This document shows, one piece after another, positions 10,826 to 45,996 of a stretch of 49,480 nt of DNA. The position numbers and the translations under genes are program-made. Every line of letters begins with the position of its first letter. Within the stretch, counting starts at the first letter, position 1. The notes under the pieces were generated by a model. It saw only the letters and a program-made list of their open reading frames with translations, had not been told where the DNA came from and made no database searches. Source of the DNA: Candidatus Bathyarchaeota archaeon (lineage in GTDB: Archaea; Thermoproteota; Bathyarchaeia; Bathyarchaeales; SOJC01); assembly GCA_004376645.1 (NCBI GenBank), contig SOJC01000060.1:1-49480 (forward strand), written 5' to 3'.

Positions 10826-11449
10826 TTAGTCCCATTCTAATTCATAGTTTGCTGTTACCTTCACAACGTCATTGATATTAATTATTCCGTAAGGCTCAGC
10901 AATGTCGCATTGCACGTTCCACGTAGAATTAGACGGAGTAGCCTCGTAAGCACTGCAGACAATCACAACATCATAGAGGTCAACTACCAAGTCGTTATTG
11001 ATGTCTGCAAGAATCCAGCGGACGTCAAACAGTAGCGTGTCAACAGCAGGCGCTCCAGCGATGTTTACTGAGGCAAGCACTCTCCAAGTACCAAACGTCT
11101 CGGTTGGGTCGGGGGAAGAAGGAAAAGCAAATTTCGCAGTTGCGATACCGAACGTATTCGTTCGTTCAACGAAAATAAATATGCCCCCGTTTGGGTCAAA
11201 GAGTTGGAAAACAACATCTTTATTCATCTCAGGCCACCCGCCATAAGTCACATTCGCACAGAGAATCACTTCTTCCTCTGACGCAAACGGCGGGCATGGC
11301 ACAGCCTGTCCTCTACCTCCTTTCTGAGTGAAGAGATCTATATTTGGCTCCGCAGAAACTTGGTAAGCTTGCACTGCTGCAAATATGTTAGCATAGAGCA
11401 AGACAAGTATTATCCAGCAGATTATTCTCCTTAGCAACGCCCTTCTCAT
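10826..11449 (-). CDS. Secreted protein with C-terminal dockerin-like EF-hand pair
   Basis: 207 aa. A typical signal peptide (RRALLRRII, then a hydrophobic core ending at AVQAYQVSA) is followed by a beta-rich domain (about 40-145), possibly Ig-like, with two Cys (CPPF, ILCANV). The C-terminus has two calcium-loop repeats, ADINNDLVVDLYDVV and CDIAEPYGIININDVV, each followed by a helix as in dockerins. Extracellular or surface-attached by inference. It resembles the other dockerin-like proteins of this window (1-1591 and 20743-21393). Partner and substrate unknown. Confidence 0.8.
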   Translation of the reverse strand: MRRALLRRIICWIILVLLYANIFAAVQAYQVSAEPNIDLFTQKGGRGQAVPCPPFASEEEVILCANVTYGGWPEMNKDVVFQLFDPNGGIFIFVERTNTFGIATAKFAFPSSPDPTETFGTWRVLASVNIAGAPAVDTLLFDVRWILADINNDLVVDLYDVVIVCSAYEATPSNSTWNVQCDIAEPYGIININDVVKVTANYELEWD

Positions 11450-11963: not shown

Positions 11964-13031
11964 CTAGACGTAATCTTCATCGCATCGTTTAATCACATGT
12001 ACAGCTGTTGCTTTGAATGAAGCATACACTTTTAGCCCAACATTCAATCCAAGTTCTTCTATTGCTTGTTTTGTCACTAGAGCCGAGAGACTGTTATCCA
12101 TGTATATCCTGAACGTTGCCCCGAATTGGGTAATACGTGTAATCTTTCCACTGATGCTGTTTCGTGCGCTGCTTTCTAACTTAACCTTGGATAAAACGAC
12201 GTTTTCTGGTCTAATGAACACGTTCACTTCTCCTTCTGTAAGACTTGAAAGTGCGCGTATATCGTAGTTTCCAATTTCAACTAGGGCCACACCATCTTCA
12301 CTCGATACTACTTTTCCTTCGACCACATTTTCCACACCAACAAAAGCCGCCATCTCCTCACTTGCAGGCTCATTGAAAACCTTGTAAGGCGTGTCAACTT
12401 GAATTACTTCACCATTCATCATCACGCCTATCCGGTCAGCCAACGCCAAAGCCTCGTCTTGATTATGGGTAATGTGGATTGTCGTCGCGCCTCGCACCTT
12501 ATGGATTCTCTTTAATTCTTCTCTCAGCGATTCTTGGGTCCTTGGATCCAAAGCACTTAATGGTTCATCCAAGAGTAGAATGTCAGGATCTATTACGAGG
12601 GCGCGGGCTAGTGCCACCCGCTGTTGTTCTCCGCCGGAAAGGGTGGAGGGAAACCTATCCTTCAAGTGAGAGATGTCTATGGAGTCCATGATGCTCTGGA
12701 CTTTAATTTCAACGTCTCTTTTGGGAACCTTACGCATTTTCAGGCCGAAGGCTACGTTTTTTTCTACACTCATATGGGGAAATAAGGAATAGTCTTGGTA
12801 GACGAACCCAATGTTGCGCTTCTCTGGTGGGATATGTGTAACGTTCTTTCCATTCAGCAGGATGTTTCCTTGACGGGGGATGTGAAACCCAGCAATGGTC
12901 TCGAGGATTAGGGTTTTCCCTGCAGCTGTAGGCCCGAGGATAACGAAGTACTCCCCTTGGGCCACGTTGAAGGACACGTTTTTGAGGGAGAAATCGCTCC
13001 ATTCGTGACTAACTTTTTCGAGAGTGATCAT
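11964..13031 (-). CDS. wtpC: Tungstate/molybdate ABC transporter ATP-binding protein
   Basis: About 355 aa. Walker A GPTAAGKT (about 37-44), signature LSGGEQQRVALARAL (about 130), Walker B DILLLDEP (about 152), switch His in HITHNQDEA, and a C-terminal TOBE domain (about 290-350) that in ModC-type proteins can bind oxyanion. The ORF-track start at 13088 is too early: the ATG at 13031 overlaps the permease stop as ATGA and begins the conserved MITLEKVSHEW. Last gene of the wtpABC operon. Specificity for tungstate rather than molybdate is inferred from the WtpA partner. Confidence 0.93.
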   Translation of the reverse strand: MITLEKVSHEWSDFSLKNVSFNVAQGEYFVILGPTAAGKTLILETIAGFHIPRQGNILLNGKNVTHIPPEKRNIGFVYQDYSLFPHMSVEKNVAFGLKMRKVPKRDVEIKVQSIMDSIDISHLKDRFPSTLSGGEQQRVALARALVIDPDILLLDEPLSALDPRTQESLREELKRIHKVRGATTIHITHNQDEALALADRIGVMMNGEVIQVDTPYKVFNEPASEEMAAFVGVENVVEGKVVSSEDGVALVEIGNYDIRALSSLTEGEVNVFIRPENVVLSKVKLESSARNSISGKITRITQFGATFRIYMDNSLSALVTKQAIEELGLNVGLKVYASFKATAVHVIKRCDEDYV

Positions 13032-13846
13032 TTTCGTCGCTCCCAGTACTTCGCAGACATACGTAGAACGATGAAAATGCCAAGGCAAACGAGTATTAAG
13101 AGGACGGCTATGGGTTGAGAACCTTTTAGACCATGTGTGGTGAATTCATAGTATATTAAAATGGGAGCAATCATAGGATAGAAGGCTATTATCATTATGG
13201 CACCAAACTCGCTTACACCTCTAGCCCACGCCATCACCGCCCCTGAAAAAAGGTGGCGAATAGCTAAGGGTAATGTGATTCGGTAGAAGGCTTTCCACTG
13301 ACTAGCACCTAGAGTTCTGGCGACACGTTCGAGACGTGGATTGATGCTTTGAAAACCTTCCCTTGCAGCGTTTACATAGAATGGGGTGCTTACAAAAAGC
13401 ATCGCTACTACAATACCCCACAAAGAATCTTCAAAGATGATGCCGAGGTTGTAGAAAGCTTCTCCTACGGCGCTTCTGCGCATAAACAGTGCATATAGAG
13501 CTATTCCTGCGACGCTGTGCGGTATTATTACTGGTATATCTATGATGGATTCCACCATACTCTTTCCAAGAAAATCATGTCTGGCAAGGACATATGCCAG
13601 GGGCGTTCCTAGAATCATTGCGATCAAGGTTGCCAGAAAGGAAGCGTACAAAGTTAACAGAATTGACTTTATCACTGTTGGATCATTAGCCGCTTCAAGA
13701 AGGCTCTTTGGATCGAGCACGATTTGACGGAAGATCATGTTGAAGAGGGTGAGTATTGTGAAGAGTATTAAAATCGAACCTACAAATGAAAAAATCAGTG
13801 AAACGGGTTGACGTTTGGCACCTCTTAGAATTTTTCTGATGGACAT
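13028..13846 (-). CDS. wtpB: Tungstate/molybdate ABC transporter permease
   Basis: 272 aa with about six membrane segments and the EAA-loop motif REGFQSINPRLERVARTLGA that contacts the ATPase. It begins 4 nt after the wtpA stop and overlaps wtpC by four bases, so the three genes are translationally coupled. Family: binding-protein-dependent transport inner-membrane component of the ModB/WtpB/CysTW type. Confidence 0.93.
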   Translation of the reverse strand: MSIRKILRGAKRQPVSLIFSFVGSILILFTILTLFNMIFRQIVLDPKSLLEAANDPTVIKSILLTLYASFLATLIAMILGTPLAYVLARHDFLGKSMVESIIDIPVIIPHSVAGIALYALFMRRSAVGEAFYNLGIIFEDSLWGIVVAMLFVSTPFYVNAAREGFQSINPRLERVARTLGASQWKAFYRITLPLAIRHLFSGAVMAWARGVSEFGAIMIIAFYPMIAPILIYYEFTTHGLKGSQPIAVLLILVCLGIFIVLRMSAKYWERRK

Positions 13847-13850
13847 TGTC

Positions 13851-14918
13851 TCACTGTTGCACTACATATGTTTCAAGGCTTTTAGGAATCTTATCTATGT
13901 CATTTGTTATCCCCGGTACGACAGGTGGTTGCGCATTGTCGCGTAAGACACTTTGACCGAATTCGTTGATGATATACTTGATGAACTCTGCGGCAAGAGT
14001 TGGATTCTTAGCGTTATTGGGTATGGTCAAACCGTAGACAATTGGCTTCCCTGTACTGGTTTTTGTGGTTTTTTGAACCTTTACCTTCTTGTAGGTATCT
14101 CTATTGTCCTCAGAGCTCAAATCGATGGATTCAGGTAGTTCTAGAAACTTTAGTCCGTGTTGCTTTGCTACACTTGAGTACTCAAAGGCGTAGTCTAGTC
14201 CACCTTCCTGCACAAATGTCACAAGCTCAACAGACTTTTCTCTAATCATCAACCTATTCGTGTTGGGATTCAAATCTGTCATATTCGTGTCTATAGTATA
14301 TATCCCGTCGGCTTCAGACACTGTGATATCTGAATTAGCTTCAACTAGATCTTCAAAGATCATGTCGTCTCCATATTCAAATTCAGCAAGCTGTATAACC
14401 ATGGGCGCTCTATATCCGCAAGGATCCATGTTGGGGTTGGAGAAACCCCATTTCACGTCGTTTCTTCGAAGAATTTGGTACCAGTTGGTTGAGTTTATCT
14501 CGTCAGCGTATCTACTGTTGTTCGCATAGGCTAGGGTCATCTTGTTAACAGCGAATATTATGTACCAGTCTGTGTAGTTGGAATCAGAAGTCATCATCAT
14601 ACTCGGTATTAAAGTGTAATCTGCAGAGGCCAGTACATCACACTCTTCGCAAAGTTCAGTGATCTTTTGGACACGGGTGATGCTACCGCCAGGCTCTAAT
14701 TGCACTTCAACGTTTTTATGGTCAGCCTCGAACTGGGCTTTAATATCTTCAAAAGGAAGTGTCAGACTGCCTGCGCAGAAAATTTTTAGTACGATCCTCT
14801 GTGACCCAGTTGACCAATAGTAGAAAAGGCTACCTATTGTTGCAATGGTAAGAATAAAAATGGTTACACCTACTTGTATTGTGGTTAATCCACTTTTGGA
14901 TAGTATAATCTTATCCAT
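13851..14918 (-). CDS. wtpA: Tungstate/molybdate-binding protein
   Basis: 355 aa. An N-terminal membrane anchor (about 14-34) is followed by a periplasmic-binding-protein fold that starts LKIFCAGSLTLPFEDI; the oxyanion-binding AGSLT and the YRAPMVIQLAE motif are typical of WtpA. The residue before AGSLT is Cys, where many relatives have His. There is no lipobox cysteine, so the protein is probably held by an uncleaved anchor. First gene of the operon. Its promoter region contains the palindromes at 14949-14985. Confidence 0.92.
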   Translation of the reverse strand: MDKIILSKSGLTTIQVGVTIFILTIATIGSLFYYWSTGSQRIVLKIFCAGSLTLPFEDIKAQFEADHKNVEVQLEPGGSITRVQKITELCEECDVLASADYTLIPSMMMTSDSNYTDWYIIFAVNKMTLAYANNSRYADEINSTNWYQILRRNDVKWGFSNPNMDPCGYRAPMVIQLAEFEYGDDMIFEDLVEANSDITVSEADGIYTIDTNMTDLNPNTNRLMIREKSVELVTFVQEGGLDYAFEYSSVAKQHGLKFLELPESIDLSSEDNRDTYKKVKVQKTTKTSTGKPIVYGLTIPNNAKNPTLAAEFIKYIINEFGQSVLRDNAQPPVVPGITNDIDKIPKSLETYVVQQ

Positions 14919-14948
14919 TTTTAAGTCACATTGTTATGTTTGGCTAAA

Positions 14949-14985
14949 CATATCGCCGATATGATCTTATATGCATATCGGCATA
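14949..14985. promoter_or_regulatory. Candidate operator between wtpABC and the ModE-like regulator
   Basis: CATATCGCCGATATG (14949-14963) is a near-perfect palindrome of two 7-nt arms around one central base. It is followed by TATGC-ATATCG-GCATA (14972-14985 region), which repeats the CATATCG half. The first lies where the TATA/BRE of wtpA is expected. The second overlaps or follows the TATA-like CTTATATG used by the rightward regulator gene. Likely the binding sites through which the regulator controls transport and itself; inferred from position. Confidence 0.6.
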
Positions 14986-15001
14986 ATACTACTTGAAATC
15001 C

Positions 15002-15571
15002 ATGCTCATCCACAATAAACATAAGCTCCTGTGCAAAGTCTGGCTTGAATACAAGGGAAAACCTCTCTTAGGAAAAGGCGGAGCACAAATCCTAGGAGCT
15101 ATAAAAGAAGAAAAATCCATCTCCAAAGCAGCAAAAAAAGTTGGCATGTCATATCGATATGTGTGGAACTACCTAGCAAAGATTAGGAAAACTCTACATG
15201 AGCCAGTGGTACAAACCTACAAGGGTGGAAGAAAAGGCGGCGGAGGAGCCCACCTCACCCATCTTGGAGAAAGCCTGCTAAAAGAGTACAAGAGAGTTGA
15301 AGACTACGTGGGTGAGATTCTGGAGGATGAAGAATATTGGGAGGCGGTTGGATTAAAAATTAGTGCACGAAACCGACTGAAGGGAATAGTCCAAGAAGTT
15401 GACAAAGGCGTAGTCACCGCAAAAGTTAAGATTAAATTAGAAAAGCCTGTCGTCGTAACCGCAATCATATCCAAAGAAGCTGTTGAAGAATTAGACATAA
15501 AGGCTGGAGACAAAGTCGAAGCAGTAATCAAAGCAACAGAAGTTATGATTGCAAAAGAAAAACAAGCCTGA
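15002..15571 (+). CDS. ModE-like molybdate/tungstate-responsive regulator (HTH + TOBE)
   Basis: About 189 aa. The N-terminal LysR/ModE-type winged helix (about 15-105; SISKAAKKVGMSYRYVWNYL recognition region, GGRKGGGGAHLT wing) is followed by one Mop/TOBE oxyanion-binding domain (about 125-185, ISARNRLKGIVQEV). It is divergent from wtpABC and separated by palindromes, so it is probably the dedicated regulator. ATG 15002 is preferred over the TTG at 14993 because the TATA-like element at about 14968 puts the transcript start near 14995. A hairpin plus T-run follows. Confidence 0.9.
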   Translation: MLIHNKHKLLCKVWLEYKGKPLLGKGGAQILGAIKEEKSISKAAKKVGMSYRYVWNYLAKIRKTLHEPVVQTYKGGRKGGGGAHLTHLGESLLKEYKRVEDYVGEILEDEEYWEAVGLKISARNRLKGIVQEVDKGVVTAKVKIKLEKPVVVTAIISKEAVEELDIKAGDKVEAVIKATEVMIAKEKQA

Positions 15572-20742: not shown

Positions 20743-21393
20743 ATGCAACGATTTCCACGTGTGTTATCAGTGTGTTGTCTAGCCACGATCGTGCTACTAT
20801 CCGTTGGACTTCGATCTTCCCAAGCCGGCTATTGTGATATCTTGCTAGAGGATCTAAACGGTGATGGCAAAGTAGACATTTACGATGTTACCATCGTCGC
20901 TAGAGCCTATGGCTCTTTTCCAGGTCACGAAAGTTGGGAGCCAAGTGCTGATATTGTTCCCGACGGAAAGATCAACATTTTCGATGTAGTAAGAGTTGCT
21001 GTCAAGCTTGGTCTGAGTCTGGGGCCATCTGAAATATCGACGCATGTTCAAGTTAAGCCTAGAACCCTCAATATGAAAAGCAATGGCCGATGGATCACAG
21101 TAATAATTAAGCTTCCAAATATGGTCGATGCACATAGTATTGATGTTTCGTCAATAGTGCTAAACGAGACTGTCTTTGCGGAGTTAAGACCTTTCTCCTT
21201 TGAAGAAAGAAAAGAGAGCGAACTAGATTTAACAATTAAGTTTGACCGTCAAAGAGTAATAGGTCTAGTTTTGGAGAAATACTCGTTAACAAACACGTTT
21301 GACGATGTTACTTTGACTGTAACTGGAAGCTTGAATAATGGTACATTGTTTAGAGGAAGCGACACAATCAGAGTAATCAATCTTCAAGGATGA
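20743..21393 (+). CDS. Secreted protein with N-terminal dockerin-like module
   Basis: 216 aa. Signal peptide (VLSVCCLATIVLLSVGLRSSQA). Directly after it comes a dockerin-like pair, EDLNGDGKVDIYDVTIVARAYG and ADIVPDGKINIFDVVRVA. A beta domain (about 98-216) begins VQVKPRTLNMKSNGRWITVI, a pattern seen next to dockerin-like repeats in archaeal secreted proteins. GGAGAAGG lies before the ATG. The dockerin-like pair is N-terminal here, unlike in the other two proteins of the window. Confidence 0.8.
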   Translation: MQRFPRVLSVCCLATIVLLSVGLRSSQAGYCDILLEDLNGDGKVDIYDVTIVARAYGSFPGHESWEPSADIVPDGKINIFDVVRVAVKLGLSLGPSEISTHVQVKPRTLNMKSNGRWITVIIKLPNMVDAHSIDVSSIVLNETVFAELRPFSFEERKESELDLTIKFDRQRVIGLVLEKYSLTNTFDDVTLTVTGSLNNGTLFRGSDTIRVINLQG

Positions 21394-30382: not shown

Positions 30383-31783
30383 ATGACAATGCTGCGTCAG
30401 GTGGATGAAGTGAGCGCCAAGAAGAAGAGTGTTCGCTACGTTCTCCCACTAATACACCAATCAGCTCTCAATCTTGGTGCATTGACAGGACAGACTACCT
30501 ACGCAAACTTTGTAAGCAGGATACGCCAAAAGCAAATCAAGATACCTATGAAAACCGCAGTGTTGAGATATTGTGAAAGATTGAAGACGAAGGTAAGTTA
30601 TCTCTTACCTACTATACTCATTTTCACCTTAATCCTAGCGCCTTTCTGCTTACTCTTCCTATTTGATGCTGATTCCTTCTCCAGAACTTGGAAGGGTAGA
30701 ACTTTCTATCTATTCTTCCTATGGTTGGTCTTCCTAGAGATTCTGTTGGAGTGGGAGACAGTCAAAGAAAGAAGACTGTCGATAAAGTCTCCTAGATTCC
30801 TGTGCTTTGCAGCAGCTTCCACGCTCCCTGCTTTCTACGCTGTTGCTGTCCACTTTCTTGGACTGAACTCTGTTCTATTTGAGATGGTTGACTGGTTAGG
30901 AATCCCATTTATCCCAGACCAGACTGGGGGATTTAGAGCTCAAGCCTATAGCTCATGGGTTCTTTCAGTTGAATACTTGGTTTTCACTGTCCTCTTTGCG
31001 ATGATTTTCTGGCTCGCATATCACAAGGATGGACTAAAAATTTTCTCCGTCTCATTATTTTTCATAGGGGCGATTGGCACAATCTATATGATAGACACCA
31101 TTTATCCCTATGGTTACTTCACTCCTCTCCAAGCCTTCGTACCATTAACCGCTTCGATGGCCGCAAACATCTTAAACTGGTTAGGCTACCAAACCGTATT
31201 CATAGGTCAAGTACTAGGAGTGCCCATTCTACAAGTATCAGACGCATCAGGCAACTTCTTAGTTCGCTACGGAATAGGTTGGCCATGCGCAGGGGTCCAA
31301 AGCCTTCTAATTTATACCTTCGTCATTCTGATATTCTTCAAAAAGACAACTATACCGCTCCTGCACAAAATAGCCTATTTTGCCTTCGGCGCACTCATTA
31401 CATACTGTATTAACATCCTCAGAATAGTTGCCATCTACTTAACATACATATATAATCTAAGTCAAGGCAAAGCAGCCGCTCAACAAGCTGCCAGCCTCTT
31501 CCACGACTACTATGGAGGCTTGCTGTCAATGACTTGGATAATGATATATCCTCTCCTGATTATAGGAACCCGCATACTCTGGAACAAAATCAGAACGCCA
31601 CCACCACATCTCAAAGTCTACGAGAAGAGCACAATCGAAGACTATGATACTCCTACAACCGTGTTAGGGACAAACCCCAAAACCACCAACACCTATAGAG
31701 GAAAAACAAGTCATAACCAGATTCCTTCGAATGAAAATACTCAAACTCACAAGGGAGAACCAGACCAAATCGGTGGCGTTTGA
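30383..31783 (+). CDS. Archaeosortase/exosortase-family membrane protein
   Basis: 466 aa with about eight membrane segments between residues 70 and 405. The transpeptidase triad is visible in the last third: Cys in GIGWPCAGVQSL (about 302), Arg in NILRIVAIY (about 346) and His in LFHDYYGG (about 373). Archaeosortases cut a C-terminal tripartite signal and attach surface proteins to lipid. The 65-residue N-terminal cytosolic extension and the 60-residue polar C-terminal tail (Thr/Asn/Pro-rich) are unusual. It starts 3 nt after the aminotransferase stop and overlaps the next gene (TGATG). Confidence 0.88.
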   Translation: MTMLRQVDEVSAKKKSVRYVLPLIHQSALNLGALTGQTTYANFVSRIRQKQIKIPMKTAVLRYCERLKTKVSYLLPTILIFTLILAPFCLLFLFDADSFSRTWKGRTFYLFFLWLVFLEILLEWETVKERRLSIKSPRFLCFAAASTLPAFYAVAVHFLGLNSVLFEMVDWLGIPFIPDQTGGFRAQAYSSWVLSVEYLVFTVLFAMIFWLAYHKDGLKIFSVSLFFIGAIGTIYMIDTIYPYGYFTPLQAFVPLTASMAANILNWLGYQTVFIGQVLGVPILQVSDASGNFLVRYGIGWPCAGVQSLLIYTFVILIFFKKTTIPLLHKIAYFAFGALITYCINILRIVAIYLTYIYNLSQGKAAAQQAASLFHDYYGGLLSMTWIMIYPLLIIGTRILWNKIRTPPPHLKVYEKSTIEDYDTPTTVLGTNPKTTNTYRGKTSHNQIPSNENTQTHKGEPDQIGGV

Positions 31784-38122: not shown

Positions 38123-38947
38123 TTATTTGCGTTTTCTGAATAGTTTGGCGAAGTCCATCTCTGTAACATATTCGACGCCAGCTTCAATCAACTGACAAGC
38201 CTCGTCAACCGTTTTAGCTACTCGAACAGTGAACTCGTCATCCTTGAAGTCTATCAAATACGTATAGACTAGCGTGTTGATTAAGTTTCTATGGGCAAGT
38301 TTCTCCTTTACGTAGAGAATGTCTTTCGTTTTATGGTAGAGCATTGTAGCAAAGTAGTGACGAAGGTCGTAGAGCCGAAATTTAAGAATTGTTGGGTCTT
38401 GTAGTTTCTGTGCAGCACGTTTCTTGGCTCTTATCCACTGTTCACCCATTCTCTTAGGGTTCATACTTGAGAACAGCCTCTCATTCAACCCACGTTTGTG
38501 TATAGCAAGATAGGTTTTCAGCATAGCCAATGTTGAAGGATTCATTCGTTCTGTTAGTCTGAGTAAACCCCATTTGGCAGTCTGTATGCTATTGATTCCT
38601 CTTTCTAAATCTACATCTCTAACTCTCGTTTCGTAAAGCTCTACTGGACGACACCCCCACTCTTCCAACAAGCTGAAAACCAAAGCATCTCTAGGATTTG
38701 CTTCTCCCTTTACTAACGCTATTTGTTCCCTAGACAAGATATTGGGAAGTCTCCGTCTTCTCTGAAAAATAGGGTGATTCCATGATAATCCACTTATATC
38801 AAGGTAGTGCTGGTAAGCATCGCAAACGGCTTCTTTGAATGTGTTTTTCCAGCGTTTATGTTCAACAATGTAATCTCTGACTTGTTCGGAGTTGTCCAAG
38901 TTTACGCTACAGGATAACATTAAGAGTCTTGAACCAATTTTTTTCAA
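38123..38947 (-). CDS. Tyrosine recombinase/integrase with unclear 5' end
   Basis: 274 aa from a TTG. Catalytic residues: Arg in EEWGCRPVELYE, Lys in QTAKWGLLRL, RLYDLRHYFATML (Arg-His, with Tyr where HxxR usually has His), His in LAHRNLINT, and nucleophile Tyr in LVYTYL. The frame stays open upstream. It reads NVVWTLKKTGYD, then YAESTLKKIGSRL, typical of integrase N-termini, and continues through the 3' half of tRNA-Leu to a stop in the anticodon region, with no ATG, GTG or TTG before 38947. The true start is lost, uses a rare codon, or was altered by integration at the tRNA. Confidence 0.85.
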   Translation of the reverse strand: MKKIGSRLLMLSCSVNLDNSEQVRDYIVEHKRWKNTFKEAVCDAYQHYLDISGLSWNHPIFQRRRRLPNILSREQIALVKGEANPRDALVFSLLEEWGCRPVELYETRVRDVDLERGINSIQTAKWGLLRLTERMNPSTLAMLKTYLAIHKRGLNERLFSSMNPKRMGEQWIRAKKRAAQKLQDPTILKFRLYDLRHYFATMLYHKTKDILYVKEKLAHRNLINTLVYTYLIDFKDDEFTVRVAKTVDEACQLIEAGVEYVTEMDFAKLFRKRK

Positions 38948-40229: not shown

Positions 40230-40772
40230 TTAAAAGACGGGTTTTACTCGAGCCATACTCTCGAGCACCCACCCAAGAGCGATCGCCACCACCCCCAAGC
40301 CAAGAGTTATGAAGCTGTCCAATACGAAAATCCATTCAAGACCACTTGCGGCTTGGAAGTAGACAGTGAGTGCATTGTATTGGAAGAAAGATAGAATGAT
40401 TAAGGCAGTTCCAATTATGTAGAAACAGATTCTGGCCATAACTTGGCCGCTCGTCAGCCTATGTGTGTAGGCCATATATTTCTTTATACTCTCAATTTCT
40501 TCAGCACGATTTCGCATGGATAACCTCAACTCGTCTAACTCTCTTTCAAGGTCGCCAATACGCCGCTCTGCTAATATTTTCGCCTCTTCAGTGAACGGAA
40601 TCTGTCTCATCTTCTCTTCATAAAGTCCAGCAATCGCCTTTTTCCTACCTAATCCTTCACTTCTCAGCTTCTCGATGTCAAAGTTAAGTGATAACTTGGG
40701 ATTCTTATATCCACTCTCTTTGTATAGCTGCAGGAGCTTATCATACATCTCTTCTGTGTTTGCTGATGGCAT
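40230..40772 (-). CDS. Coiled-coil membrane protein of unknown function
   Basis: About 180 aa. A helical/coiled-coil cytosolic part (about 1-105; AERRIGDLERELDELRLSMRNRAEEIESI) is followed by two membrane helices (about 112-135 and 145-170) and a short basic end. No family recognised. ATG 40772 is preferred because a TATA-like CTTTAAATGC near 40806 places transcription just upstream. Divergent from the cohesin-like protein gene, sharing about 120 bp of promoter DNA. Confidence 0.65.
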   Translation of the reverse strand: MPSANTEEMYDKLLQLYKESGYKNPKLSLNFDIEKLRSEGLGRKKAIAGLYEEKMRQIPFTEEAKILAERRIGDLERELDELRLSMRNRAEEIESIKKYMAYTHRLTSGQVMARICFYIIGTALIILSFFQYNALTVYFQAASGLEWIFVLDSFITLGLGVVAIALGWVLESMARVKPVF

Positions 40773-40898
40773 CGAGTTCACAAAAAATACAAATGCTTCA
40801 ATTGCATTTAAAGGTTCGAAAAGCGATATCAACCTTAACGGATATCAAGAAGCGAAACTACATAAAGAATGGAGGATATCGTGCCAGAGGTGAAGCTA

Positions 40899-42302
40899 AT
40901 GATCAAAACTGCGCAACTGATGGCTCTCATACTAGTCGCTAATGTTGCAGTGACGTTGGCCCAGATCAAAGTGTCAGCCTCTGAGTTGCCTAACGATATG
41001 CCCGTTGTCTACGTAGACCCGCAACAAGCATTTGGCGCAGAAGGAACAACCTTCACTGTTAGCGTTAAAATCTTCAATCTTACAAACAGTTTCTACCCGA
41101 CAGACAGCAAATGGGAGACTGGTGAACCGTTACCACCTCCTGGTACCCTTTTCAATTATTCTCTTGGCAATATGTACGGATTTGACATCGTCTTCAGCTG
41201 GGACCCTGCAGTTTTAGAGTATGTAGATCGATCCGTAATGACCCCTGTGGAAGAATTTCCAGAAGGTGTTCTTCATGCACCAATTGTGGAAATGCAGGAC
41301 GAAGTGGATTCTTTAGCTGGCAACTATTCTCTTTCACAAAGTTCATGGCCTCCTGTAATATCCTTCAACTGCCCTAATGACAACGCCACAATATTTACAA
41401 TAACTTTTAGGGTAAAAGAGGAGAGAACGGGCTCTTTACATCTTGAAAGTGTTGAACTCATGCTCGACCCGCTTCTTGCCATTCAACAAGGTGTCCCCGA
41501 CATAATTCCGCATCGAACTGTAGATGGCGAATTCAGCCGTGTTAGAACTACACGTATTATCAGTATGAATGTTGGAGCTTTAATTGGAACTCAATGGCAT
41601 AACCCGTTGATTGCAGGAGAAGACGCTATTGTAAGTGTCTTTGTTTTCAATGAAGGGGAAATAGCAAACTCTTACAATCTAAGCCTATACGATGGTGACA
41701 CTCTTTTAGTTTGGTGGAAGGGTGAAAGCTTAGGTCGACATAAGAGTAGAGTCCACGACTACACGCTGAAGACCAACCTCCTAGGGAGAGGGATCCATAG
41801 AGTTACAGCCGAACTCTCTGTTTTGCATTATGAAACCATAATCGTGGACTTATTCACTGGAAACTTCACGTTGATCTATGGACCATTACTCAGCATCAGT
41901 AAGACACCGACTGAGATAGAGCAGAACGAGACGATGACGCTAAGTGCGGAATCAAGCTTTCACCAAGATCCAAGTAGCTTCATTTCAACCTACACGTGGC
42001 TTCTCTACGAACCCGAAGCTGAGATCCCGGCATACGAGTTCAAAGGAGTAACTGTGACTCACAGATTCTCCAAGAACGGAACATGGACAGCTGTACTTAC
42101 TGTTGAAGATAATTGGGGCATAACCTTGGATCCACTTCGCACAGCAACTGCACCATATCGAAAAGAAATACAAATCAACGTTGGCTTGGTCAGCATACCA
42201 GACCCAATTCTTACACAAGAGCAAGTGACAGCTATCATAGTCTTTATCCTCATGGCGATTGCCACCATTGTCGGCTATACCCTCGGTAAGTGGCGCCGCT
42301 AG
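40899..42302 (+). CDS. Surface protein with cohesin-like domain, PKD-like domain and C-terminal anchor
   Basis: About 467 aa from ATG 40899 (GAGGTGA five bases upstream). Signal peptide IKTAQLMALILVANVAVTLAQ. A cohesin-like beta domain (about 35-210) begins VVYVDPQQAFGAEGTTFTVS and has MYGFDIVFSWDPAVLEYV, then FNCPNDNATIFTITFRVKEE. A CARDB-like domain (about 220-330) and a PKD-like domain (about 335-425) follow. The C-terminus is PDP-rich turn, hydrophobic helix, KWRR: a membrane anchor that resembles sortase-type tripartite signals without matching a named one. Many N-glycosylation sequons. A plausible scaffold for the dockerin-like proteins of the same window. Confidence 0.8.
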   Translation: MIKTAQLMALILVANVAVTLAQIKVSASELPNDMPVVYVDPQQAFGAEGTTFTVSVKIFNLTNSFYPTDSKWETGEPLPPPGTLFNYSLGNMYGFDIVFSWDPAVLEYVDRSVMTPVEEFPEGVLHAPIVEMQDEVDSLAGNYSLSQSSWPPVISFNCPNDNATIFTITFRVKEERTGSLHLESVELMLDPLLAIQQGVPDIIPHRTVDGEFSRVRTTRIISMNVGALIGTQWHNPLIAGEDAIVSVFVFNEGEIANSYNLSLYDGDTLLVWWKGESLGRHKSRVHDYTLKTNLLGRGIHRVTAELSVLHYETIIVDLFTGNFTLIYGPLLSISKTPTEIEQNETMTLSAESSFHQDPSSFISTYTWLLYEPEAEIPAYEFKGVTVTHRFSKNGTWTAVLTVEDNWGITLDPLRTATAPYRKEIQINVGLVSIPDPILTQEQVTAIIVFILMAIATIVGYTLGKWRR

Positions 42303-42697: not shown

Positions 42698-42840
42698 TCC
42701 CAACACCCACATAATAAGATGTGCTTTCATGCATTTTAGGCTTTTGCTTAGCCAAACCGCATTCCAGATTCCGGAGAGGAAGAGGTACTCCTGAGAGAAG
42801 CCTTTATCTTACCTTTCGCCAATCTCTTCCAAGAACAGAA

Positions 42841-43068
42841 ATGACAGGTATCAGAGAAAAAGTTGAAGCAGCGTTAGAAGAGATCAGACCTAATCTGCAA
42901 GCAGATGGTGGAGACATTGAACTCGTTGACGTGGAAAAGGGAATTGCGAAGGTCAAGTTGAAGGGAGCATGCGCTGGTTGCCCCATGTCAACGATGACAA
43001 TAAAATGGGGAGTTGAGAACTTCCTAAAGAAGAAGATTCCAGAGATCGTTAAGGTTGAAGCAGTTTAG
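42841..43068 (+). CDS. NifU C-terminal-domain Fe-S scaffold/carrier
   Basis: 75 aa, the single NifU-C (Nfu) domain: ALEEIRPNLQADGGDIELVDV and the cluster-binding GACAGCPMSTMT. It carries a 4Fe-4S cluster to apo-proteins as a dimer. ATG 42841 is favoured by a TATA-like CCTTTATCTT at about 42806; the ORF-track start at 42721 overlaps the promoter. Possible clients nearby include the TudS-like and thiolation enzymes. Confidence 0.93.
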   Translation: MTGIREKVEAALEEIRPNLQADGGDIELVDVEKGIAKVKLKGACAGCPMSTMTIKWGVENFLKKKIPEIVKVEAV

Positions 43069-43160
43069 GTCAAGGTAGCTATACCAGCTAAAGCATGTGC
43101 TGTTATTCATGACAATGTAACATATCTGTGAGAGTGATACAGTGGATATACTGGTATCCA

Positions 43161-44534
43161 CTAATGCGCTGTTATTCCGGTGAAGCGTAGTTTCGCTAGT
43201 TTCATTGCAGGTGTTGTAACGTCTTCTAGAATTTCAAGATCTTTTCCAATCATTGGAATCGTCTTTAAGGCGGAAAGCATGCTGTCCGTATATCGCAGAT
43301 TTCTCACGGGGTTCGTGAGTTCACCATTTTCGATGAGAAATGTGCCGTCCCTAGTTAATCCTGTCAGGATTGCCTTTGATGGTTCAACTGGGTTAGTGTA
43401 GTGGAATCTTGTTATGAAAATGCCTCTTTTGGTTTCTTGAATCATCTCTTCTACAGAAGCGTTACCTGAAGTTACTAGAATGTTGAATGGCATGGGTCTA
43501 CTTATAAAACCGAATACTGGCGGGATCGCATGTCCTGTGCTCATTCTTTTCTCTTTTCCAGCGGTGAAAGAGTCATAGCAGATGCTCTTTTCGGAAACCC
43601 TACCCTCCTCAACTAACTGGACTTTCGCTTTTGGCACACCTTCACCGTCTATTGAAAACGAGTACAGCGTTTTGGGATCTCTTGGGTCGTCTCTTACGTT
43701 GAGCTTTTTGTCAAACACTCTTTTTCCTAGGTTATACTTCACAAAGGATTGACCGTCTTGGAAACTTGTTGCAGAGAAACCTATGTATCCAAGATACATG
43801 AAGAGCCCTGCCACAGCTCGAGGTGAGAGAACTACCTCATGTTCACCGATTGATATCTTGCTGGGGTTTATGCTCCTGATTGATCTATCTGCTGCTCGTC
43901 CACCTACTTGGGCGGCGTCGATATCTTTAATCCTTCTCGAGTGTTGCTCCTCTGAACTGAAGCCTTGGGAGCTTCCTGACTTTGAAATTACAGTGGTTTG
44001 AATTGAGGCTACTGCAATCTCTGTCCAAGCTGAAGTTCCCAGCGAGTTGACTACTGCGAAGGCTAAGGACTCTGTGGAGAAGGATCCTGCGACTGCTTTG
44101 ACAAGTTGCGATCTCGAGTGGGCCGCGTCGATTGCTTCCTTAACTCTTTCTGCTCTATAATCTGGCGTGCATTCTGCAGTTTCTTTATGGTAAACATCAT
44201 TTATAGGTATCCACTTCGCCGGTTTCGGCAGGCTCCTGAAATCCTTGTTTGGAGGCGTGACTCGCGCAATCTTAACTGCGTCAGTCACAGCGTCTTTAAT
44301 CTGCCCCTTTTCTAGGGAGTTCACAAGTAGAGTACCGATTCTTCCACCAGTCACTACTTTTATGGCTATTCCACCCTTGTTTGAGGCGACGTTTTGGTGG
44401 ATTTGTGAGTTGGCATATCTTGTTAGGGCTGAATTGACTTGAAATGCCGCAACTTGTACTTGATCGACCTCGTTACGTTCACGCGCTTGTTCCATCGTGT
44501 TCTTGGCGATTTCTAACAATCGTTTAGTTGTCAC
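43161..44534 (-). CDS. pmbA: TldE/PmbA-like metalloprotease subunit
   Basis: 457 aa. PmbA/TldE features: LVNSLEKGQIKDAVTDAVKIAR, SLGTSAWTE, VVLSPRAVAGLFMYLGYIGFSA and FNILVTSGNASVEEMIQETKRGIFITRF, and no zinc HExxxH, which belongs to the partner. With TldD it forms a heterodimeric protease that degrades unfolded peptides or matures peptide products. GTG start with GAGGTGA six bases upstream, 13 bases after the tldD stop. Confidence 0.93.
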   Translation of the reverse strand: MTTKRLLEIAKNTMEQARERNEVDQVQVAAFQVNSALTRYANSQIHQNVASNKGGIAIKVVTGGRIGTLLVNSLEKGQIKDAVTDAVKIARVTPPNKDFRSLPKPAKWIPINDVYHKETAECTPDYRAERVKEAIDAAHSRSQLVKAVAGSFSTESLAFAVVNSLGTSAWTEIAVASIQTTVISKSGSSQGFSSEEQHSRRIKDIDAAQVGGRAADRSIRSINPSKISIGEHEVVLSPRAVAGLFMYLGYIGFSATSFQDGQSFVKYNLGKRVFDKKLNVRDDPRDPKTLYSFSIDGEGVPKAKVQLVEEGRVSEKSICYDSFTAGKEKRMSTGHAIPPVFGFISRPMPFNILVTSGNASVEEMIQETKRGIFITRFHYTNPVEPSKAILTGLTRDGTFLIENGELTNPVRNLRYTDSMLSALKTIPMIGKDLEILEDVTTPAMKLAKLRFTGITAH

Positions 44535-44547
44535 AGTCTTTCACCTC

Positions 44548-45996
44548 TTACTTGAGTAAGCCCACCTGTACTTCTTTGAAGCGAGCAGTGCCACAACCGT
44601 GGCCAACGTACATGACTTGCCCTGGAACCCCCTTTCCACAGTTTGGTGTACCCCACATCATCCAGTCGTCTCTGCTTATGGCGTCGCATGAACCCCAGAA
44701 TTGTGGTGTAATGCCTGTGTATGTAGGGTTTTTGATCATTTCTTCCCTGCTCCCTCCTTTGATTCTCCATCCGATTTCAGCGCCGAATTGGAAGTTCAAT
44801 CGTCGGTCATCTATGCTCCATGACCGATTTGTCTGCATCAGAATCCCATCTCGCGTGTCTTCGATCAGTTCTTCAGCTTTCCAGTCGCCTTCGAGCAGGT
44901 TGATGTTTGTCATTCGAATGAGAGGTATCTTCAAGGGTGAGTCAGCTCGCATGCCACCGCTACTTTCTTTCAACTCTAAGAGAGCCGCTGTCTCTCGCGA
45001 AGATTGGTAACCCACAAAGACCCCTTCCTTCACTAAGTATGTCTTTTTGGCGGGGATCCCTTCGTCATCGTAACCAAATGTGCCTAATCCCCCCAGTACT
45101 GTTGAATCAGCAATTATGTTGACTTTCTTTGATCCATATTTGAATGTGTTCAGTTTGTCAGGTGTTAGAAAGCTTGTTCCTGCGTAGTCTGCTTCCATGC
45201 CTAGGGCTCTGTCAAGTTCCGTCGGATGTCCACAACTTTCGTGGATTTGAAGGGCAAGCTGATCGCCTGTGATGATTAAATTCTTGGTTGTGGATGGACA
45301 TTTTTCTGCGTTAAGTAGCTGCAGGGCGTCTTGTCCAACTTTCTTGGCTTCTTGGATTAGCCTTAGAGATTCGAAGAACTCGAACCCACTTGTCGAGAAG
45401 TTCCCTCGAAAAGAACTAGGATAAGACCGTCGTTGAACCTCCCCATTTTTTATGGCTACCCCCATTAAGCCCCCGCCGCACCACACTATCTGTTGGTTGA
45501 TTTCAGCGCCTTCGGTGCTCATGAATAATTTCTTTTCTTGCTTTGCTCTAAAGAATGAGTAGGAGACCTTTATGAGAGGAGATTGCTTTGCCACAGTGCT
45601 TTCTGCTTCCATCAGTATGTCCATCTTCTCTTCGAGAGATATTTTGAATGGGTCTTTCTTCACTGGTGTTGAATACTTCGCCCTTTCAGTTTTGGCATCT
45701 CTTAATGAGACGGGATCCTTATTGACCTTGGCGCTTGCTCTTGCGATGGCGACGGCTTCTCGAGCTACTTTCACAACTTCGCTTTTTGTCACATCGACGG
45801 ACGCTGCGAATCCCCATGAGCCTCTCGCCAAGACTCGGAGACCGAAACCCTTCATCTTTGACTGATTTACTTCTTCCGGTACACCATTCTTCACAGTTAG
45901 GTTCTCGTTGAGAATTTCTCCAATTCTGATATCAGCATATGTGGCACCTGCTTCTAATGCTTCTTCTAAGCCTTTTCTACCAAGATCTAAGGACAT
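44548..45996 (-). CDS. tldD: TldD metalloprotease
   Basis: 482 aa. Zinc-binding motif IHESCGHPTELDRALG (HExxxH), then FGYDDEGIPAKKTYLV, SSGGMRADSPLKIPLIRMTN and C-terminal CGTARFKEVQVGLL. The catalytic subunit of the TldD/TldE pair. First gene of the two-gene operon. No precursor peptide gene was seen next to it, so a general proteolytic role is more likely than maturation of a local peptide. Confidence 0.95.
   Translation of the reverse strand: MSLDLGRKGLEEALEAGATYADIRIGEILNENLTVKNGVPEEVNQSKMKGFGLRVLARGSWGFAASVDVTKSEVVKVAREAVAIARASAKVNKDPVSLRDAKTERAKYSTPVKKDPFKISLEEKMDILMEAESTVAKQSPLIKVSYSFFRAKQEKKLFMSTEGAEINQQIVWCGGGLMGVAIKNGEVQRRSYPSSFRGNFSTSGFEFFESLRLIQEAKKVGQDALQLLNAEKCPSTTKNLIITGDQLALQIHESCGHPTELDRALGMEADYAGTSFLTPDKLNTFKYGSKKVNIIADSTVLGGLGTFGYDDEGIPAKKTYLVKEGVFVGYQSSRETAALLELKESSGGMRADSPLKIPLIRMTNINLLEGDWKAEELIEDTRDGILMQTNRSWSIDDRRLNFQFGAEIGWRIKGGSREEMIKNPTYTGITPQFWGSCDAISRDDWMMWGTPNCGKGVPGQVMYVGHGCGTARFKEVQVGLLK

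Follow-up and report, generated by a model that had tools for sequence, protein, structure and literature searches.

A predicted membrane-anchored cohesin protein and dockerin-bearing proteins in a bathyarchaeal genome: a candidate non-cellulosomal surface assembly

How could secreted proteins without a membrane anchor be kept at the surface of an archaeal cell? The question is raised by a Candidatus Bathyarchaeota contig of 49,480 nucleotides (the window, i.e., the whole stretch of DNA analysed here, designated C110 in an assembly of 142 contigs and 1.25 Mb, 94.7% complete). The gene at 40899-42302 (+) encodes P0004, a predicted membrane-anchored cohesin receptor of 467 aa, and three other genes of the window encode proteins with dockerin-like modules, a combination that the first-pass annotation had proposed to be an archaeal cohesin-dockerin surface system. 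Our best reading is a non-cellulosomal surface assembly composed of a membrane receptor, a cohesin-dockerin adaptor and dockerin-tagged cargo, which we infer to bind one another. If they do bind, a single plug-and-socket device dependent on calcium would account for surface retention of secreted proteins in an uncultured class of archaea.

The membrane-anchored protein and its cohesin domain

The reading frame of P0004 is complete, and orthologues are found in at least six related genomes; the closest named records with an orthologue belong to Candidatus Bathyarchaeota (72% identity). The protein begins with a signal peptide (residues about 1-26, 40899-40976) and ends with a membrane helix followed by the basic tail KWRR (residues 443-467, 42225-42299; hydropathy 2.38 over 19 residues), both read from the sequence in agreement with the first-pass annotation. 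An in-frame ATG upstream at 40869 is a possible alternative start, the signal peptide being better from 40899, and the N-terminus is hydrophobic in every orthologue of A1. Between the two ends lie the cohesin domain (residues 30-215, 40986-41543), a CARDB-like region (residues about 218-325, 41550-41873) and a PKD domain (residues 331-407, 41889-42119), all on the forward strand. The PKD domain scores 27.9 bits with PF00801, above the cut-off, and PKD_4 is matched in all eight orthologues. The evidence for the CARDB-like region, from Pfam and BLAST, is weaker than that for PKD: Pfam CARDB is matched in 1 of 8 orthologues only, and the region resembles a cohesin-CARDB protein encoded on another contig of the assembly, C69. 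An NCBIfam search of P0004 found neither a family nor a sorting signal. The neighbouring genes at 40230-40832 (-) and 42721-45996, by inspection a coiled-coil membrane protein and NifU-like plus TldD/TldE-like genes, stay adjacent to the orthologues in L040-L042, and a protein of the phage integrase family (PF00589) is encoded 2 kb upstream at 38123-38947 (-).

Pfam annotation alone would miss the cohesin domain, because its PF00963 score (17.3 bits, E=0.0057) is below the cut-off of 24.1 bits; the same model matches three of the eight orthologues at E<=0.01, the best at 2e-6. In view of the fold and profile searches, this low score is a limit of sensitivity and not a defining trait of the domain. 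It probably arises in part because a conserved insert of ~30 residues (FYPTDSKWETGEPLPPPGTLFNYSLGN; 41088-41162), located between strands 2 and 3, splits the domain. Every orthologue has the insert, and W, G and Y residues within it are invariant; in the AF2 model it shows little order. Most other sampled cohesins lack it, and it distinguishes the P0004 domain from the cohesins of C69.

The single sequence of P0004 gave zero matches in the PDB, so that a profile of the eight orthologous domains was required, which led to type II cohesins of A. cellulolyticus ScaB (3l8q, E=2.1e-5). A Foldseek comparison of the AF2 model computed from the eight sequences (pLDDT 74.3, pTM 0.75) with known structures gave 46 PDB matches at E<=0.001, each of them a cohesin, with TM-scores of up to 0.77 (target-normalised). 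Residues 90-331 moreover match the C69 protein by BLAST (E=5e-14), and the cohesin of that protein passes the Pfam cut-off. The model thus assigns a cohesin jelly-roll fold to the beta domain, in accord with the cohesin-like domain described from the sequence; an Ig or CARDB fold, which had been named as the outcome that would speak against it, was rejected on the strength of the fold search, where only cohesins appear at E<=0.001.

Dockerin modules, their proteins and their cargo

Dockerin-like pairs had been described in three other proteins of the window, and all three are borne out by sequence comparison. P0001 (2-1591, +), which has lost its 5' end at the left end of the window (also the contig end) and whose signal peptide is hence outside view, consists of a weak C39-like domain, a CARDB domain and a C-terminal dockerin (1412-1588). 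P0003 (20743-21393, +) is predicted to be secreted and carries an N-terminal dockerin (20845-21024) ahead of a beta-rich domain. Both dockerins have two loop-helix repeats and exceed the PF00404 cut-off of 22.9 bits, with 37.6 bits in P0001 and 31.1 bits in P0003. P0002 (10826-11449, -), a predicted secreted beta-domain protein, is not matched by PF00404 in Pfam; its C-terminal dockerin (10829-11011, -) was recognised by BLAST from its similarity to the dockerins of P0003 (47% identity, E=7e-9) and P0001 (E=9e-7). In a shuffle test, paired calcium-loop-like 12-mers at dockerin spacing were obtained in 0 of 2000 shuffles for P0003 and in 22 of 2000 for P0001. An AF2 model of the P0003 dockerin built from four sequences reached a pLDDT of only 52.7, with the two helices expected of its secondary structure, and the identity of the window's dockerins rests on sequence.

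The first calcium loop retains five of five ligands in all three proteins. The second retains four of five in P0001 and P0003, where it reads DIIEDGIINIFDVV and DIVPDGKINIFDVV, respectively, and matches the pattern DxxxDGxxxIxDVV. This pattern had been ascribed to all three pairs; it does not extend to the degenerate second loop of P0002 (DIAEPYGIININDVV), which has one residue extra and no D ahead of the G. Many cellulosomal dockerins have a symmetric dual binding mode. Because the first and second loops are asymmetric, the dockerins of the window suggest a single mode instead. P0001 contains in addition an internal dockerin-like pair (374-577, +) that was missing from the earlier list; it sits within the C39-like domain and is conserved in all five aligned sequences. 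In two P0001 orthologues, L062 and L064, several repeats of ~60 residues of the type PCSWWEI..EFHVD..FHID occur upstream of the C39-like domain, and this repeat-bearing part falls beyond the contig end in the P0001 of the window.

What the dockerins might carry is less distinct. The idea of protease-like cargo is weakly upheld for P0001: Peptidase_C39_2 is matched in two of five orthologues, the best at E=0.018. Two residues, Cys31 and His240 in the numbering of the domain, do not vary. A PDB search with the C39-like domain returned EF-hands and dockerins, i.e., its own internal dockerin, and two chains titled as serine proteases, which likewise align in the dockerin stretch only. The statement that the dockerin partners carry no glycosidases agrees with Pfam, where none of the dockerin proteins, several of them fragments, is recognised as a glycoside hydrolase. 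Other cargo in the genome includes an InhA-type MAM domain on contig C43 (PF20773, 33.2 bits) as well as small proteins with beta domains, and in a relative (L035, G007:C14) one chain unites a C25 (gingipain-type) peptidase with a cohesin, CARDB and a dockerin.

Both modules were counted across the genome by profile searches, a check already put forward in the first-pass annotation; the profiles used (A3 and A4) include this genome's own modules, and their scores therefore serve for counting and not as independent proof of homology. The searches yielded three cohesins, namely P0004 and two at C69, and ten dockerin modules in nine proteins (P0001 with two, P0002, P0003, and one each on contigs C92, C69, C140, C5, C43 and C9), a system small enough for each pair of cohesin and dockerin to be tested. 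P0004 is the only one of the cohesin proteins with a membrane anchor, and it does not share an operon with its supposed dockerin partners. The first dockerin loops have five of five calcium ligands except in C9, where both loops are degenerate; in C140 the second loop is degenerate. The C9 dockerin (L142:3820-4317) is on a fragment that has no Pfam match and looks by eye like the end of a solute-binding protein of family 5 (GGYLMLKRNPFYPMETPPLGEVDF); solute-binding proteins of this kind carry dockerins in ANME archaea (PMC9012536).

The conserved three-gene locus on C69 (L009:2022-4546) encodes an adaptor with a cohesin, two CARDB domains and a dockerin. Its other two products are a small membrane protein and a secreted cohesin that stands by itself. 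The pair of adaptor and solitary cohesin is found again in three genomes (G001, G004 and G007), all of which have a P0004 orthologue. The adaptors of relatives combine as many as three cohesins with a dockerin in one protein, as in G003; G015 has a protein with three cohesins.

The modules of this system are, as judged from profile searches, nearest to the type II partners of cellulosomes. The top seven PDB matches of a family-wide dockerin profile, at 2.2e-12 to 2e-10, are all dockerins of type II, whereas the type I dockerin 1ohz scores 3e-4, and the top fifteen matches of the family-wide cohesin profile are type II cohesins; these labels come partly from PDB titles and partly, for 2b59, 3kcp, 2bm3 and 1tyj, from the type to which we take them to belong. 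The structural (Foldseek) ranking of the P0004 cohesin mixes types I and II without separating them. In cellulosomes it is the type II pair that fastens the complex at the cell envelope, its dockerin being stabilised by an adjoining X-module (PMC5141474). A CARDB domain directly precedes five of the ten dockerins here (those of P0001, C5 and C69, that of C92 by similarity and that of C43 by inspection), which may be seen as a parallel to the X-module in position only.

Association of the two modules across Bathyarchaeia

Among 257 Bathyarchaeia genomes both modules were found in 83, a cohesin only in 18, a dockerin only in 21 and neither in 135, an association (OR 29.6, p=2e-29) that is partly due to shared ancestry. 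The surface domain PKD, used as a control, is more weakly associated with cohesin (OR 9.5) and dockerin (OR 6.1), and among PKD-positive genomes the odds ratio of cohesin and dockerin is 34.9. Counting by genus (44/6/6/53, OR 65) lessens the effect of shared ancestry without removing it.

A second line of evidence is the way cohesin proteins end. The survey covered uncut cohesin proteins, with every ORF counted a single time and without the loci at which a neighbouring ORF had been picked. Six of these proteins have a C-terminal membrane helix, nine a dockerin, four neither and none both. The exchange is seen among homologues: L031 has an insert-bearing cohesin of the P0004 type, yet ends in a dockerin, and the beta domain of P0002 is joined to a membrane helix in L052. 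Such exchange of helix for dockerin is expected if the dockerin serves as an anchor.

A proposed surface receptor, its alternatives and its relatives

From the domain identities, the cohesin fold, the gene counts, the architectures, the co-occurrence and the exchange of helix and dockerin, we consider it probable that P0004 is a cell-surface cohesin receptor for dockerin-tagged secreted proteins, with the C69 adaptor as a possible extension. P0004 would be exported, its C-terminal helix would keep it in the membrane, and its one cohesin would be displayed outward on a stalk of about two domains (CARDB-like and PKD). Secreted proteins that have no anchor of their own could then be retained at the surface when their calcium-loop dockerins dock into this cohesin, and the C69 adaptor together with the free secreted cohesin could lengthen the chain by one step. 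Against this reading speak the near-complete genomes in which cohesins but not dockerins were detected (G018, G137 and G015), the reverse cases, the imperfect second calcium loops of the three window dockerins, the location of P0004 and its supposed partners outside a common operon, and the share of the co-occurrence that is due to common descent. Because every cohesin protein of this genome has one cohesin, the genome cannot build a large scaffold, so that retention at the surface is likelier than a large complex of many enzymes. Given these single-cohesin proteins and the absence of a Pfam glycoside hydrolase from the dockerin proteins (several of which are fragments), the system does not classify as a cellulosome. 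The type of system that had been proposed for the window thus stands by fold, profiles, co-occurrence and architecture, with the docking itself a prediction, as is the pairing of this cohesin with the three dockerins of the window in preference to others of the ten.

It is unlikely, in our estimate, that the P0004 cohesin is genuine but has something else as its target, be it another cohesin, a glycan, the S-layer or a partner organism, with the C69 cohesins serving the dockerins of this genome. The conserved insert sets the P0004 cohesin apart from those of C69, and some cohesin-bearing genomes lack a detected dockerin. Yet the L031 chain combines the same insert-bearing cohesin with a terminal dockerin, and the C69 cohesins, having no membrane anchor, could not by themselves fix cargo to the cell.

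We give even less credence to the view that cohesin and dockerin no longer pair and have been retained by inheritance as modules with a structural or adhesive role in large surface proteins. The degenerate second loops of P0002 and C140 and both loops of C9 would fit this view, as would the genomes with one module only, but the first loops outside C9 keep their full set of calcium ligands, cohesin and dockerin co-occur more strongly than either does with PKD, and a membrane helix is exchanged for a dockerin among homologues. About as improbable is attachment of P0004 by an archaeosortase with the C-terminal helix as its sorting signal, which we dropped: an exosortase/archaeosortase family protein is encoded in the window at 30383-31783 (+) (TIGR04178, 46.4 bits, cut-off 23; 49.7 against 250 for the thaumarchaeosortase model), and the C-terminus of the homologue L046 consists of IPEFQW, a helix and a basic tail, an order that recalls PEF-CTERM, but NCBIfam finds a sorting signal in neither P0004 nor L046, the gene of the archaeosortase family protein is 9 kb away from that of P0004, and such attachment would alter the chemistry of the anchor and not the receptor role.

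The receptor reading can be extended from this genome to the class. Whether Bathyarchaeia have a widespread cellulosome-like, non-cellulolytic surface assembly, built of type II-like pairs, insert-modified receptors, adaptors, and peptidase-like and other cargo, is in our judgement evenly balanced. If so, the assembly would elaborate on the cohesin-dockerin principle in a class of uncultured archaea for which no description of it was found.

Several known systems are comparable. As in C. thermocellum (ScaF/SdbA with the X-dockerin of ScaA/CipA) and A. cellulolyticus (ScaB), the receptor would be at the cell and the dockerin on the attached protein, and where the anchoring scaffoldins of cellulosomes have an Ig-like X-module before the dockerin, many dockerins here directly follow CARDB. 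In contrast to those type II systems, a large primary scaffoldin is missing, the dockerin proteins have no glycoside hydrolase that was recognised, anchoring would be by a membrane helix where cellulosomes use SLH or sortase attachment, and the cohesin has a conserved insert. The cohesin-like modules of Clostridium perfringens (2jh2, 2o4e and 2vo8), which were matched in the structure search, are also non-cellulosomal; they occur on a secreted glycoside hydrolase, whereas the P0004 cohesin is on a membrane-anchored non-enzyme.

That archaeal examples are little studied, as the first-pass annotation remarked, is a fair description, yet they are known in Archaeoglobus and ANME (PMC9012536). The Archaeoglobus fulgidus pair (Bayer et al. 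1999, via PMC9012536), likened here by description only, is archaeal and non-cellulosomal, and binding of archaeal cohesin-dockerin pairs, this one included, is cited in Chadwick et al. 2022 (PMC9012536). In ANME, scaffoldin-like proteins and dockerin-tagged transporter subunits have been reported (PMC9012536; Timmers et al. 2017, PMC5244752). These proteins are likewise archaeal and non-cellulosomal, with many dockerin proteins, with cohesin-plus-dockerin proteins, and with CARDB and similar surface domains, a likeness drawn from description; they belong to another archaeal class and have up to five cohesins per protein compared to one in this genome. A full-text literature search, which covered few subscription papers, found no cohesin-dockerin system for Bathyarchaeia. 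What is new is accordingly another archaeal lineage and a receptor subfamily with an insert, archaeal cohesin-dockerin systems as such being already known.

Elsewhere in the window, the genes at 11964-15571 encode, as judged by inspection, the ATPase, permease and binding protein of a molybdate/tungstate-type ABC transporter, and a ModE-like regulator faces them.
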